From assembly GCA_022821965.1 (NCBI GenBank), contig JAJECN010000023.1:1-64000 (forward strand): a stretch of 64,000 bases of DNA, written 5' to 3'. The translations under genes and the position numbers were made by a program. Shown here piece by piece: positions 4,676 through 59,476 of this stretch (its first letter is position 1; every line of letters begins with the position of its first letter). The notes beneath the pieces were generated by a model that worked only from the letters and a program-made list of their open reading frames with translations, was not told where the DNA came from and did no database searches. The stretch comes from Candidatus Poribacteria bacterium. GTDB taxonomy: Bacteria; Poribacteria; WGA-4E; WGA-3G.

Positions 4676-5326
4676 TTATTGACGGTTGCTTTTCAACTCG
4701 CCCCACGTCGATGTGAGTTTCTGCTTCGGATCGACAGCAGTGCTCACAGCAGGTATAACTTCCAAGGCACTGAACATCGCGTTTAGATCGCCTGCGCCGG
4801 TCTCAGCATTTCCAGCGAAATTAAAGTCGAGTGTCCCATCGCTCACTTGAATCCCTGGATAGGTCTTGATGTCAATCTCATGTCTACCCGGTGTAACGTA
4901 GAGCGGTTCAACGTTTTCCTCTTCAATGAAGATATCGAAGCCACGGTTGTTCGGCGACCAGTGCTCACCGACGAGGTAGGTGACATCAAATACGCCGTCA
5001 CCGGTCTTGAACTGATACTTAACAGTGTCAGGGAATCGTGCCCAACTGACAGCGTAGAAGAGGTCCACGTCGTAGCCAGCAGCTTCAGCCTGCGCTTGTG
5101 CATCCGCTGTCAACTCTTTTACCTCAGCAGTGCGAGGTGCCAGTTCAATCCAACCACCCCACGACTGGTCTTCCTGCTGTGCGCCTTTCCAGACGCGTCC
5201 TTTTGAGTCGGTGAAGTCATCTGTCTTGCCGCCCCACACTCGGAATTCCTCTGCTGGTAGCAGCGTCGGTAGTGCGAACATAGCCAGGAAAAACACTATT
5301 GTTAAAACACTAAGTAGTTTCATCAA
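4676..5326 (-). CDS. Secreted malectin-like protein with C-terminal KLTSTWG motif (copy 1)
   Basis: Exported protein of 216 residues. A hydrophobic signal peptide covers residues 1-25 (MMKLLSVLTIVFFLAMFALPTLL, then PAEE). The mature part resembles malectin/NPCBM carbohydrate-binding modules: RVWGG near the start, then FDVTYLVGEHW, RGFDIFIE and a later DGTLDFNFAGN strand. It is about two-thirds identical by eye to the gene upstream at 5342-5995, so the pair is a tandem duplication, probably cotranscribed with 15 bases between them. The last residues, KLTSTWGELKSNRQ, recur in the duplicate and, more loosely, in the LamG protein at 58628. Domain call is inferred from pattern only. Confidence 0.7.
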   Translation of the reverse strand: MMKLLSVLTIVFFLAMFALPTLLPAEEFRVWGGKTDDFTDSKGRVWKGAQQEDQSWGGWIELAPRTAEVKELTADAQAQAEAAGYDVDLFYAVSWARFPDTVKYQFKTGDGVFDVTYLVGEHWSPNNRGFDIFIEEENVEPLYVTPGRHEIDIKTYPGIQVSDGTLDFNFAGNAETGAGDLNAMFSALEVIPAVSTAVDPKQKLTSTWGELKSNRQ

Positions 5327-5341
5327 AGTTGCCTCCTTTTA

Positions 5342-5995
5342 TTATTGATTTTGCCGTTCCGATTTCAACGCACCCCATGTTGATGTGAGTTTCTGCTTCG
5401 GATCAACGGCTAATGCAGGAATCACTTCTATTCCGCTAAACATCGCATTGAGATCGCCTTTGCCAGTTTTCTGGTTGCCAGCAAACTCAAGGCTCATCAC
5501 TTTATCTTTAACCTGAATGCCTTCGTATCGTTTAATATCAATCTCATCTTTGCCCGGTGTTACATAAAGCGGCTCAACAACCTCGCCTTCGATGATGATG
5601 TCAAAACCGCGATTGTTCGGGGACCAGTGTTCCCCGACGAGATAGGTGACATTGAAGGTGCCTTTGCCGGTATTCAGATCCATCTTAACGACATCGGGAA
5701 ACCTTGCCCAACTGACAGCATAGAAGAGCTCCTCATCATACCCTTCTTTCTTCGCCAGTTTTTTGGCATCGTTCGTGAGATTGCGGACTTCTGCTGTGCG
5801 CGGTAGCAATTCAATCCATCCACCCCACGCTTCTTTTTCATTTTGCCCGCCGTGCCAGACACGTCCATCAGAATCTTTGAAATCTTCCGCTTTACCGCCC
5901 CATACCCGAATCTCTTCGGCAGAACTTGCATCATGAATAATGGTTGCTGTAACAAATACAGCAAGCAAAATTACGAAAACTATACCCTGTCGCAT
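5342..5995 (-). CDS. Secreted malectin-like protein with C-terminal KLTSTWG motif (copy 2)
   Basis: Paralogue of the preceding entry, 217 residues, with a signal peptide ending near ASSAEE. The block VTYLVGEHWSPNNRGFDI is identical in both copies, as are FYAVSWARFPD and VEPLYVTPG. The central fold resembles a malectin-like sugar-binding module. The C-terminus VDPKQKLTSTWGALKSERQ matches copy 1 almost exactly after a variable stretch, which suggests a functional tail rather than drift. It is the upstream gene of the pair. The ligand is unknown; attachment to polysaccharide or cell-surface glycan is a reasonable guess. Confidence 0.7.
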   Translation of the reverse strand: MRQGIVFVILLAVFVTATIIHDASSAEEIRVWGGKAEDFKDSDGRVWHGGQNEKEAWGGWIELLPRTAEVRNLTNDAKKLAKKEGYDEELFYAVSWARFPDVVKMDLNTGKGTFNVTYLVGEHWSPNNRGFDIIIEGEVVEPLYVTPGKDEIDIKRYEGIQVKDKVMSLEFAGNQKTGKGDLNAMFSGIEVIPALAVDPKQKLTSTWGALKSERQNQ

Positions 5996-6216: not shown

Positions 6217-7824
6217 TCACTCGGTGCTCTCAACCACAATAAGCCGTTGATTCACTTTCACATCGGTCAATGTCTGAACAATACCGCTTGGCCACTGAAT
6301 AACAATCTTGTCCACCACTTTGTGGTGTGCAAGCCCGAATTCGACATCAAGACTGTTCTGCGAAAGGTAACTGTCCCCCGCTGTTACCTGTTGAATCTGA
6401 TGCAGGTCGCCTGCGCTCACCTTCACGAGTGCGCCAATACCATCCCGATTGCTCACCGTGCCAACTGTGCGGATTTGAAGCCACTGTTGTCGATTGCCGC
6501 CATCGTTTCGGAGCAGCATCGGTTTCGATCCGCTATTGACAATAAAGATGTCCAAATCACCATCGACATCGTAATCGCCGACGGCTACGCCTCTGCCAAC
6601 GCCGTACGAACCGAATTTCCGCAGCCCTACAGCTTCAGAAATATCAGCGAAGGTGCCATCACCGTTATTTTCAAGGAGGACATCGGGTTGCCCGTGTGCT
6701 TCCCACGAAGCTGGATCAATATGACCTGCTGCAAAAAAAATATCCAAATCACCGTCGTTATCCGCGTCAAATAGGGCGGTGCCCCAACATGTTTTACCGA
6801 GTCCTGCCTCAAAAATACCGCTCTGTGAGGAGACATCAGCAAAGGTCCCATCGCCGTTATTTCTATAGAGGACATTGTTTTCATCCAACCAGTTTGTAAC
6901 AAAGAGGTCTAAATCGCTGTCTATATCGTAATCGCCCCAAGCAACACCCATACCGCTTCGGATATCGCCGGTATGACTCCGTGCGTCTGGACGATTTGTA
7001 TTTGTGAACGTTAGTTCTCCGTCGTTGCGATAGAGAATATTCTGGTCGGTATCGTTGGCAAGATAGAGATCCAGATCGCCATCGGCATCGTAATCTGCTG
7101 CAGCGACCCCAAGTGTCAGATGAAACCCACCATTCACTTTGGCAGCATTTGTAATATCAATGAATCCACCATCTCCCTTGTTTACATAGAGCACGTTTGC
7201 CTGTCCGAAGAAATCGTAAGGGAAAAAAACTTCATCCCCCTGTGGCACTTTGGTATATTCAATATAGTTGCCGATGTAAAGGTCAAGATAGCCGTCGCTA
7301 TCGTAATCGCCCCATGCAATACCAGCACCGAAACCGTTGTCGCCAATGCCTCCAGCACCAGATGAGAAGCGTTTGAAAGTGCCGTCCCCGTTGTTTCGAT
7401 AAAACAGATTCGCCTTATAGTTCGTAACATAAAGATCGGAATCACCGTCGTTGTCGTAATCTGCGAAAGCGCATCCCATGCCCCAACCGGTATCGCCAAC
7501 GCCAGCGGCATCGGTTACATCCGTGAAGGTCCCATCACCGTTATTTCGGTAGAGCGTGTTTTTTGGGAGGACAGCGTCCGCTGCAGGTCGAACTAAGGAA
7601 CCGTTGACAATGTAAAGGTCTAATCTACCGTCGTTATTGTAGTCGCACCACGCTGCACCTGAACCGACGAGTGCAGGCAGTACACGTAAGTCGATACCGC
7701 CAGCGTGCTCAAAATGGATACCTGCCTGTTCGGTGACATCGACAAATTGGATATCAGATGCATGACTATTCAAGGTAAACAAAAGGTTCAAGACGACAAT
7801 GGCTGTTCGTAACCTATTTTGCAT
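6217..7824 (-). CDS. Secreted FG-GAP/VCBS repeat protein with C-terminal ASPIC/UnbV domain
   Basis: Exported beta-propeller protein of 535 residues, of the CRTAC1 type. The N-terminal 23 residues form a signal peptide ending NSHASD. Seven repeats carry a calcium-binding loop of the form D-x-(D/N)-x-D/S-G (DYNNDGRLDLYI, DYDNDGDSDLYV, DYDSDGYLDLYI, DYDADGDLDLYL, DYDIDSDLDLFV, DADNDGDLDIFF, DYDVDGDLDIFI). The last 100 residues form an ASPIC/UnbV domain (GIGALVKVSAGD, QNSLDVEFGLA, IVIQWPSG). Such proteins are extracellular and probably bind other proteins or glycans. It stands alone on the minus strand. Confidence 0.9.
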   Translation of the reverse strand: MQNRLRTAIVVLNLLFTLNSHASDIQFVDVTEQAGIHFEHAGGIDLRVLPALVGSGAAWCDYNNDGRLDLYIVNGSLVRPAADAVLPKNTLYRNNGDGTFTDVTDAAGVGDTGWGMGCAFADYDNDGDSDLYVTNYKANLFYRNNGDGTFKRFSSGAGGIGDNGFGAGIAWGDYDSDGYLDLYIGNYIEYTKVPQGDEVFFPYDFFGQANVLYVNKGDGGFIDITNAAKVNGGFHLTLGVAAADYDADGDLDLYLANDTDQNILYRNDGELTFTNTNRPDARSHTGDIRSGMGVAWGDYDIDSDLDLFVTNWLDENNVLYRNNGDGTFADVSSQSGIFEAGLGKTCWGTALFDADNDGDLDIFFAAGHIDPASWEAHGQPDVLLENNGDGTFADISEAVGLRKFGSYGVGRGVAVGDYDVDGDLDIFIVNSGSKPMLLRNDGGNRQQWLQIRTVGTVSNRDGIGALVKVSAGDLHQIQQVTAGDSYLSQNSLDVEFGLAHHKVVDKIVIQWPSGIVQTLTDVKVNQRLIVVESTE

Positions 7825-58283: not shown

Positions 58284-58631
58284 ATGGGCATCCCATTTTT
58301 TATTCTTTTTGCCCTTTCAATCGCTTTTCTATCACTTGGGATAACTGGGTGGGGTGGCTTCGTCTCGGTGGAATGGCCTCAACAGGATTCACCCGATGCA
58401 AGCAGCGACAACACCGTGGCTGTCACCCCTTACCTGAGTTTTCAACCTAATTATTGGGCGGTCGCACAGTGCGGCATAGGGTTTCTATTGTTTTTAGCGA
58501 GTCTCTATTTTATGGGCTTTTTCCTCTATCTTGAAGAGCGAGAAAGCGGTAGGATAATGAAGAACGTTAAAAGTTTCGCCAAACTACGACAGTTTATAGA
58601 ACGACATCAGAAGGGGGACACTTCAGAATGA
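58284..58631 (+). CDS. Small membrane protein, two helices
   Basis: Protein of 115 residues with helices at about 5-28 (FFILFALSIAFLSLGITGWGGF) and 60-80 (AQCGIGFLLFLASLYFMGFFLYL), and a basic C-terminal region. The ATG is 12 bases after the dehydrogenase stop, and its own stop overlaps the next ATG by four bases, so it sits between two genes in one operon. No family recognised. Confidence 0.6.
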   Translation: MGIPFFILFALSIAFLSLGITGWGGFVSVEWPQQDSPDASSDNTVAVTPYLSFQPNYWAVAQCGIGFLLFLASLYFMGFFLYLEERESGRIMKNVKSFAKLRQFIERHQKGDTSE

Positions 58632-59476
58632 ATTCTCTCATAAGATTTTTCGTTAGTAAACCGAAGCGGGACCGGATGCTGATAGGCATCGGATTGCTGT
58701 TTGGCACGGTATGCTGTTTTACGACAGCCGATGCCAAAATCGACCCAGAGACAGTTGCCGGAATCTGGCTTTTCGATGAGGGGACTGGGAAGACCGCTAA
58801 GGATTTATCCGGAAATGGAAACGATGGCGAACTCAAGGAAGGCGCGAAATGGGAAGATGGACAATTCGGACAGGCAGTTATATTTGATGGGAAAGATGAT
58901 TACGTTGAAATTGCTCCTTCACCGTTGTTCAATCCGGAGGGGTTCACTGTCACCTTCTGGATGCATCCGACGGCTGTTGGAGGCAACAACCCGGCAGGTA
59001 AAGGCTCAGCCACCCTTGTCATTGCGAACGGGAACCCTGGAGACGGTGGTGGAGCAAATTGGTGGTTTGAGTTCTGGAATGGCGGTAACTTTGAATTCAA
59101 AAGTTGTCAAGCGGGTTGTGCTGCTGCGACCACACCGGTAAACAAACCGAATGAATGGTATTTTATCGCTGGTATCTACAACGGCACTGAGTATGAACTC
59201 TATATTGATGCTACATTTAAGTCGAAAGGACCGAACAAGGTCGGCGCACCGGAAAAGGGACTCCTTATTGGTAGTGGATTGTGTCCGGCAGGTCATGGAT
59301 GTGACGGTGGCTATTTCAAAGGCATCATTGACGATGTGGCAATGTTTGGTGCTATCTTGAGTGAAGCGGACCTAAAAACGCTTATGGAAGAAGGTGTGGG
59401 CAAAGTACTCGGTGTTGCGCCAGTAGAACCCACAGGCAAATTAACAACGACGTGGGGCAATTTGAAACGGCGTTAA
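58628..59476 (+). CDS. Secreted LamG (concanavalin A-like) protein with C-terminal KLTTTWG motif
   Basis: Exported protein of 282 residues. A signal peptide ends near TTADA-K (residue 36). The mature part is a LamG/ConA-like beta sandwich typical of extracellular proteins: ELKEGAKWEDGQFGQAVIFDGKDDYVEI, FTVTFWMHPTAVGG, GIIDDVAMFGAILSEADLKTLMEEG. The cysteine pair CQAGCAAATT may be a disulphide. The last residues are GKLTTTWGNLKRR, almost the tail of the two malectin-like proteins at 4676 and 5342. Coupled by ATGA to the small membrane protein. Confidence 0.85.
   Translation: MNSLIRFFVSKPKRDRMLIGIGLLFGTVCCFTTADAKIDPETVAGIWLFDEGTGKTAKDLSGNGNDGELKEGAKWEDGQFGQAVIFDGKDDYVEIAPSPLFNPEGFTVTFWMHPTAVGGNNPAGKGSATLVIANGNPGDGGGANWWFEFWNGGNFEFKSCQAGCAAATTPVNKPNEWYFIAGIYNGTEYELYIDATFKSKGPNKVGAPEKGLLIGSGLCPAGHGCDGGYFKGIIDDVAMFGAILSEADLKTLMEEGVGKVLGVAPVEPTGKLTTTWGNLKRR

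Follow-up and report, generated by a model that had tools for sequence, protein, structure and literature searches.

The type IX secretion system handles Sec-exported proteins of many kinds that carry a C-terminal signal, and its type A C-terminal domain (CTD; TIGR04183, Por_Secre_tail) is an Ig-like β-sandwich of ~70–80 residues, or of ~45–55 in short forms. The type IX signal needs basic residues at its extreme end and has a conserved Lys in its last strand (PMC11285876), the last 22 residues of Hbp35 have been reported to be its targeting signal (PMC11969387, PMC11285876), and the "short" CTDs of Prevotella intermedia comprise 43–55 residues with motifs B, D, and E (PMC11969387). In type B CTDs, five motifs are conserved, and the cognate PorP/SprF shuttles are often encoded next door (PMC12618676). 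The PEP-CTERM/exosortase, GlyGly-CTERM/rhombosortase, and LPXTG/sortase motifs precede a transmembrane helix and a basic cluster, and the β-signal of outer-membrane barrels has an aromatic residue near the C-terminus. For Poribacteria, a single-cell study described "potential" TIGR04183 domains in proteins of the phylum and found none of the Por structural genes (PMC3909097, Kamke et al. 2014), and type IX secretion is mentioned only for Bacteroidetes/Flavobacterium in PMC7313196 and PMC13052501.

We analysed a stretch of 64,000 nucleotides of poribacterial DNA, referred to here as the window. The initial annotation had claimed that three secreted proteins of the window, two of them malectin-like and one a LamG protein, share a C-terminal motif. 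This motif was confirmed when the translations were re-read. The three C-termini follow the pattern V-x-P-x-x-K-L-[AT]-T-T-W-G-x-[LI]-K, with a few residues after it. In each of them V(D/E)P precedes the tail, the tail ends the protein, and the N-terminus contains a hydrophobic, signal-peptide-like stretch. The C-terminus of the LamG protein reads APVEPTGKLTTTWGNLKRR (translation). The features are as follows.

4676..5326, minus strand: tailed exported protein of 216 aa, fold unknown (translation; the listed start is TTG and the second codon is ATG)
4679..4738, minus strand: C-terminal tail AVDPKQKLTSTWGELKSNRQ of the 4676 protein (translation; strict pattern match at 4691-4708)
5249..5326 (approximate end), minus strand: signal-peptide-like N-terminus of the 4676 protein (hydrophobicity scan)
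5342..5995, minus strand: tailed exported protein of 217 aa, fold unknown (translation)
5345..5410, minus strand: C-terminal tail AVDPKQKLTSTWGALKSERQNQ of the 5342 protein (translation; strict pattern match at 5363-5380)
5918..5995 (approximate end), minus strand: signal-peptide-like N-terminus of the 5342 protein (hydrophobicity scan)
58628..59476, plus strand: tailed exported LamG protein of 282 aa (PF13385 (Laminin_G_3) match, E 2.3e-19)
58628..58735 (approximate end), plus strand: signal-peptide-like N-terminus of the LamG protein (hydrophobicity scan; model-predicted helix 14-30)
59420..59473, plus strand: C-terminal tail PVEPTGKLTTTWGNLKRR of the LamG protein (translation; strict pattern match at 59450-59467)

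The 4676 and 5342 proteins are paralogues with 65% identity, and neither was detected as LamG. Relatives of the 5342 protein were present in 46 of the 81 genomes of the phylum, and the tail was retained in all 51 orthologue and paralogue frames of the pair. No support was found for the description of these two proteins as malectin-like. A Pfam search of both gave no match, the best PDB sequence match for the family was an unrelated enzyme at a non-significant E of 0.028, and the structure model of the family reached a pLDDT of only 36, which is too poor for fold assignment. The LamG protein was modelled with AlphaFold2 at a core pLDDT of 92–98. Residues 268–272 of this model, which form the linker, fell below 50, and the tail (51–68) appeared as a weak, low-confidence short helix apart from the core. 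As a separate observation, FG-GAP/UnbV-ASPIC type proteins adjoin tailed genes in four loci (window 6217-7824, L033, L046, and L071).

The abundance and position of the motif were determined in the source genome (5.69 Mb). The TWGx(hydrophobic)K pattern matched the DNA 94 times genome-wide versus 2 times for a reversed-pattern control. We counted open frames of ≥50 aa in the surroundings of nearly all 94 matches; among 90 such frames with TWGxxK, the motif lay 1–10 residues before the stop in 85 and more than 200 residues away in 5. On a position-specific score, strict tails reached ≥21.9 and internal segments of 909 proteins reached −1.5 at most. At least 46 further frames in the fetched stretches had relaxed cores (TWA, IWG, TWS, and SWG) on this score. 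The 337 genes of 20 random 20-kb stretches included 11 with a tail, none of the scores fell between 0 and 12, and extrapolation from this small sample gives ~150 tailed proteins per genome. The score was trained on tails of the same genome to which it was applied; the random-sample count and the leave-one-out scan given below are partly protected from this training bias and are not independent of it. A chance origin of the motif is ruled out by the excess over the reversed control, the C-terminal position, and the scores of tails relative to internal segments. Two tailed genes are interrupted, either by a frameshift or by a stop codon in frame (L055:8300-9414 and L103:9064-9849).

The conserved unit of the tail is 17 residues long. 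Its consensus is [LF]-[AP]-V-[EDS]-[PA]-x-x-K-L-[AT]-T-T-W-G-x-[LI]-K-x(1-11)-stop, with a broader core of [LF]-x-V-x-[PA]-x-x-K-L-[AT]-T-[TIL]-W-[GAS]-x-[LIV]-K, and 1–11 residues, mostly 2–4, follow the core in 135 tailed genes. In a leave-one-out scan (threshold 10; null maximum up to 11.6 with K skipped), W and K were each present in 256 of 257 frames, and Arg never replaced Lys. The corresponding values for the frames that had not been selected by the strict pattern were 70/71 for W and 70/71 for K. Position +2 of the tail was G, A, or S, and T once. The T0 codons were mixed (ACA 29, ACG 27, ACT 25, and ACC 4). Codon choice is free at conserved positions, which indicates that selection acts on the peptide. 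An alignment of 49 LamG sequences had four invariant columns, of which three were T, W, and K of the tail and one belonged to the LamG domain. The tail is a module that can be detached from its carrier, sits at the very C-terminus, is conserved as protein sequence, and occurs on exported proteins with several different folds.

We compared the tailed genes with the other genes for signs of export. Of 135 tailed genes, 129 had an N-terminal hydrophobic stretch, versus 305 of 954 others, and later transmembrane segments were present in 2 of 135 versus 172 of 954. These signal-peptide assignments were made by a hydrophobicity heuristic with longest-frame starts and without a trained predictor. Among the six tailed genes that lacked the stretch, three are cut by the end of the sequence stretch, one is the 3′ part of a frameshifted gene, and two have a doubtful start codon. 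In the random sample of stretches, the tail occurred on 10 of 58 signal-peptide-like proteins without later transmembrane segments. The families found among 85 tailed proteins, whose counts may overlap, were Laminin_G_3 (42), PD40 β-propeller (11), 3keto-disac_hyd (11), CBM9_1 (2), and F5_F8_type_C (2), and NPCBM was represented by one tailed protein with a relaxed core. A feature of LamG proteins only is ruled out by the other families among the 85.

The tail occurs throughout the phylum. Matches were found in 84 of 84 Poribacteria genomes (5,838 in total, median 73, versus 264 reversed-control matches), and 79 genomes of another phylum were at background (225 matches versus 172 for the control). 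A scan of 84,980 named species gave at least 114 matching stretches; 77 of the 80 examined were titled Poribacteria, and the motif was C-terminal in all 87 frames of ≥50 aa. In the four most distant phylum members tested, a C-terminal tail was present at 19 of 20 places, and the tail is therefore probably as old as the phylum. The initial annotation had stated that its reading would be refuted by absence of the motif from other secreted proteins of the phylum or by the same tail on cytosolic proteins. Neither was the case: the motif is phylum-wide, and no clearly cytosolic carrier was found among the 135 tailed genes. Its claim that unrelated folds have the same tail also held for LamG, propeller, CBM, and unclassified proteins, apart from the malectin-like part.

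Three stretches carried titles outside the phylum. A sponge MAG titled Pseudomonadota (L128) has two full tails on one contig; this contig is likely misplaced, because the 1.9 Mb of the MAG contain only four pattern matches. A sequence titled Deltaproteobacteria (L154) has a full tail (score 44.9) in a short frame that is broken just after an esterase. The tails of L128 and L154 may represent misplaced contigs or spread beyond the phylum. The match in L177 scored 4.5, is chance-like, and does not resemble a tail. Within the phylum, one 91% complete member (G009) has only 4 pattern matches; loss or change of the tail is possible there, and this genome could be useful for finding the tail receptor by loss.

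Tails were also found on phage contigs. The strict KLxTTWGxxK pattern matched three IMG/VR contigs, and all three matches were C-terminal tails. A wider pattern gave 46 stretches, and 49 loci were scored together, one contig being included twice. Five distinct phage contigs had full-scoring tails (≥28); the others had a low score, mostly in short frames, or none. The tailed LamG proteins of phages are located as follows.

L339:12770-13696: phage tailed LamG protein
L341:5498-6421: phage tailed LamG protein
L343:5983-6906: phage tailed LamG protein

On L339 and L341, the tailed LamG protein (307–308 aa) lies beside T4-type replication genes. Both contigs encode a family B polymerase and a DnaB-like helicase, and L339 also encodes the clamp, the clamp loader, and UvsX. 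Relatives retaining the tail are present on L340, an end fragment, and on L343, a 67-kb contig. The tail of the presumed host is kept on a secreted lectin-like protein of the phage, and the phages therefore provide independent evidence that the tail has a function. The phage LamG protein may be located at the surface, for example as a superinfection blocker, in a host that is itself inferred.

We compared the tail with the known C-terminal signals. Like the type A CTD, it is found at the C-terminus of Sec-exported proteins of many kinds and has a conserved basic residue near its end; unlike this domain, it consists of ~17–25 residues and contains no β-sandwich. TIGR04183 matched none of the 85 tailed proteins at E ≤ 0.01. 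Type IX substrates are expected to have an N-terminal Sec-like stretch and to be encoded in a genome with SprA/PorV/PorU-like genes, and the tailed proteins meet both points. The tail shares with PEP-CTERM, GlyGly-CTERM, and LPXTG a short C-terminal motif, exported carriers, and tens of copies per genome; in contrast to them, it is followed by only 1–11 residues and no membrane helix. These three families were absent from the NCBIfam matches of the 85 tailed proteins, and sortase PF04203 was detected in 0 of 81 genomes by a search that detected it in 3 of 14 control genomes. Identity with a known CTERM family is not supported, as no NCBIfam match to one was found among the 85 proteins. Type B CTDs provide a precedent for one translocon that serves several classes of C-terminal signal through different shuttles, but no shuttle is paired with the poribacterial tail. 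The β-signal likewise places an aromatic residue near the C-terminus of an exported protein, but the cargo of the tail consists of LamG, propeller, and CBM proteins rather than barrels. A literature search with the motif strings returned no relevant paper. The initial claim that no such signal has been named held, since no named signal matches the tail, and as far as the literature searched shows, the tail is likely to represent an undescribed class of C-terminal signal.

Genes resembling those of the type IX system were identified in the phylum. SprA (TIGR04189) matches were present in 81 of 81 genomes and exceeded the cut-off only in G006; the SprA-like score in the source genome was 146.6 versus the curated cut-off of 200. 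Pfam SprA_N was over its cut-off in 2 of the 3 proteins tested and just below it in the source-genome protein. Peptidase C25 was present in 80 of 81 genomes. In the source genome, a PorU-like protein of 2,076 aa matched NF033707 (E 1e-116, 390.9 bits, below the cut-off of 420) and PDB 6za2 (PorU; E 1.4e-34), and the gene directly after it encodes a PorV-family barrel (NF033709, 101.6, over the cut-off of 90). This PorU-like and PorV-family pair was scored in the source genome only. The divergent SprA/Sov-like gene and the PorU-like and PorV-family pair of the source genome C42 lie in the following two loci.

L058:9914-16639: locus with type IX-like genes
L320:6674-14072: locus with type IX-like genes

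The source genome also contains 18 PorV/PorQ-family matches, some of which are parts of one gene. One or two PorV-family genes are expected for a simple type IX system, and 18 is many more. Proteins with TIGR04183 domains over the cut-off numbered 58 in this genome; these are other, larger proteins, and none of the matches is at the place of the tail. The TIGR04183-type ends read YPNPFNPETW...RKMLIRK and form a second class of C-terminal signal beside the short tail. A type IX-like translocon and sortase are likely to be present in Poribacteria, the SprA-like and PorU-like proteins of the source genome being below threshold.

A link between this machinery and the tail is hypothetical. Of 21 SprA-like loci, only 3, all in the genus of the window, have a tailed gene next to the SprA-like gene. 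Only a few PorV-family genes lay near tailed genes; in 3 of 15, the nearest strict tail was <3.5 kb away, as judged from a subset of 34 of the 94 strict matches. No enzyme was enriched among the neighbours of tailed genes (242 neighbour slots). Without a match to any type IX CTD model, the tail is linked to type IX by co-occurrence only, and this co-occurrence carries little information because all members of the phylum have both the tail and the machinery. A co-occurring processing enzyme had been suggested as a further check of the tag; the PorU-type C25 peptidase, found in all but one of the 81 genomes, is a candidate with no specific link to the tail.

The proposal of a sorting, anchoring, or maturation tag is supported as a general reading, and the choice among the three is an inference. 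On balance, we favour, by a modest margin, a reading in which this short, linear C-terminal peptide is a signal that sorts proteins exported by Sec; this reading has no experiment behind it, and no receptor has been identified. The tailed proteins would first be exported by Sec. A periplasmic or outer-membrane receptor would then bind the free tail through its Trp and Lys, and the bound protein would be placed on or beyond the outer membrane. The SprA translocon, PorV-family shuttles, and the PorU/C25 sortase are the best candidates for the receptor or route. The type IX-like machinery would read two signals, namely, a folded CTD of ~75 residues on big proteins and a short peptide on small ones. 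We lean slightly against type IX-like machinery being the route, which is suggested by co-occurrence alone. A bolder reading is possible, in which Poribacteria possess a type IX-like system, far from that of Bacteroidota, that reads both the folded domain and a new 17-residue peptide through its invariant Trp and Lys, the peptide being carried by ~150 proteins per genome that are small and mostly carbohydrate-binding. T4-like phages infecting these bacteria would hijack the peptide to put a LamG protein on the host surface. Both the route and the host are inferred in this bolder reading.

Four other explanations were considered. The one that survives best, and that remains possible, is that the tail is a docking peptide. 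As a short linear motif, it would bind a scaffold protein common to its carriers, at the surface or in the periplasm, and would anchor or assemble lectin-like proteins in one layer without a role in transport. The detached, flexible tail of the LamG model, the invariant W and K in free surroundings, the mainly carbohydrate-binding cargo, and the many copies per genome are in favour of this explanation. However, no scaffold protein was found, and the strict distance of 1–11 residues from the stop fits end-specific recognition by export or processing machinery better than it fits an internal docking motif. It is unlikely that the invariant Lys is a covalent attachment point, either to peptidoglycan or, via an isopeptide bond, to a surface polymer. 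The Lys is indeed nearly invariant and never Arg (256/257 frames), and Braun's lipoprotein, which is linked to peptidoglycan through its C-terminal Lys, offers a comparison. Unlike in Braun's lipoprotein, however, the Lys of the tail is never the last residue (1–11 follow), sortase PF04203 is absent from all 81 genomes, and the invariant W would require a separate explanation.

We consider it very improbable that the tail belongs to the folds as a structural element or is an end inherited within one expanded LamG family. Half of the tailed proteins are LamG proteins with extensive paralogy, which agrees with this explanation, but β-propellers, CBM9, NPCBM, and unclassified proteins end in the same tail, the tail is detached in the LamG model, and its T, W, and K are invariant as against one residue of the LamG domain in the 49-member alignment. 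The explanation that the conserved element is DNA, such as a site for recombination or integration at the ends of genes, could draw on the 76 of 242 neighbour slots in which tailed genes adjoin other tailed genes, but it is practically excluded, because synonymous third codon positions vary freely, and the tails keep one frame with respect to the stop codon.

Bacteria rely on C-terminal sorting signals to define how their surface is built, and Poribacteria are abundant uncultured sponge symbionts in which the export of lectin-like proteins is poorly understood. The PorU-, PorV-, and SprA-like genes reopen the published view of the phylum as one with type IX sorting domains and without type IX structural genes. 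The tail provides a handle for metaproteomics, and as a short peptide, it can be tested as an export tag. If the sorting reading is true, a tag on ~150 proteins per genome would be a direct list of the proteins that share one destination.
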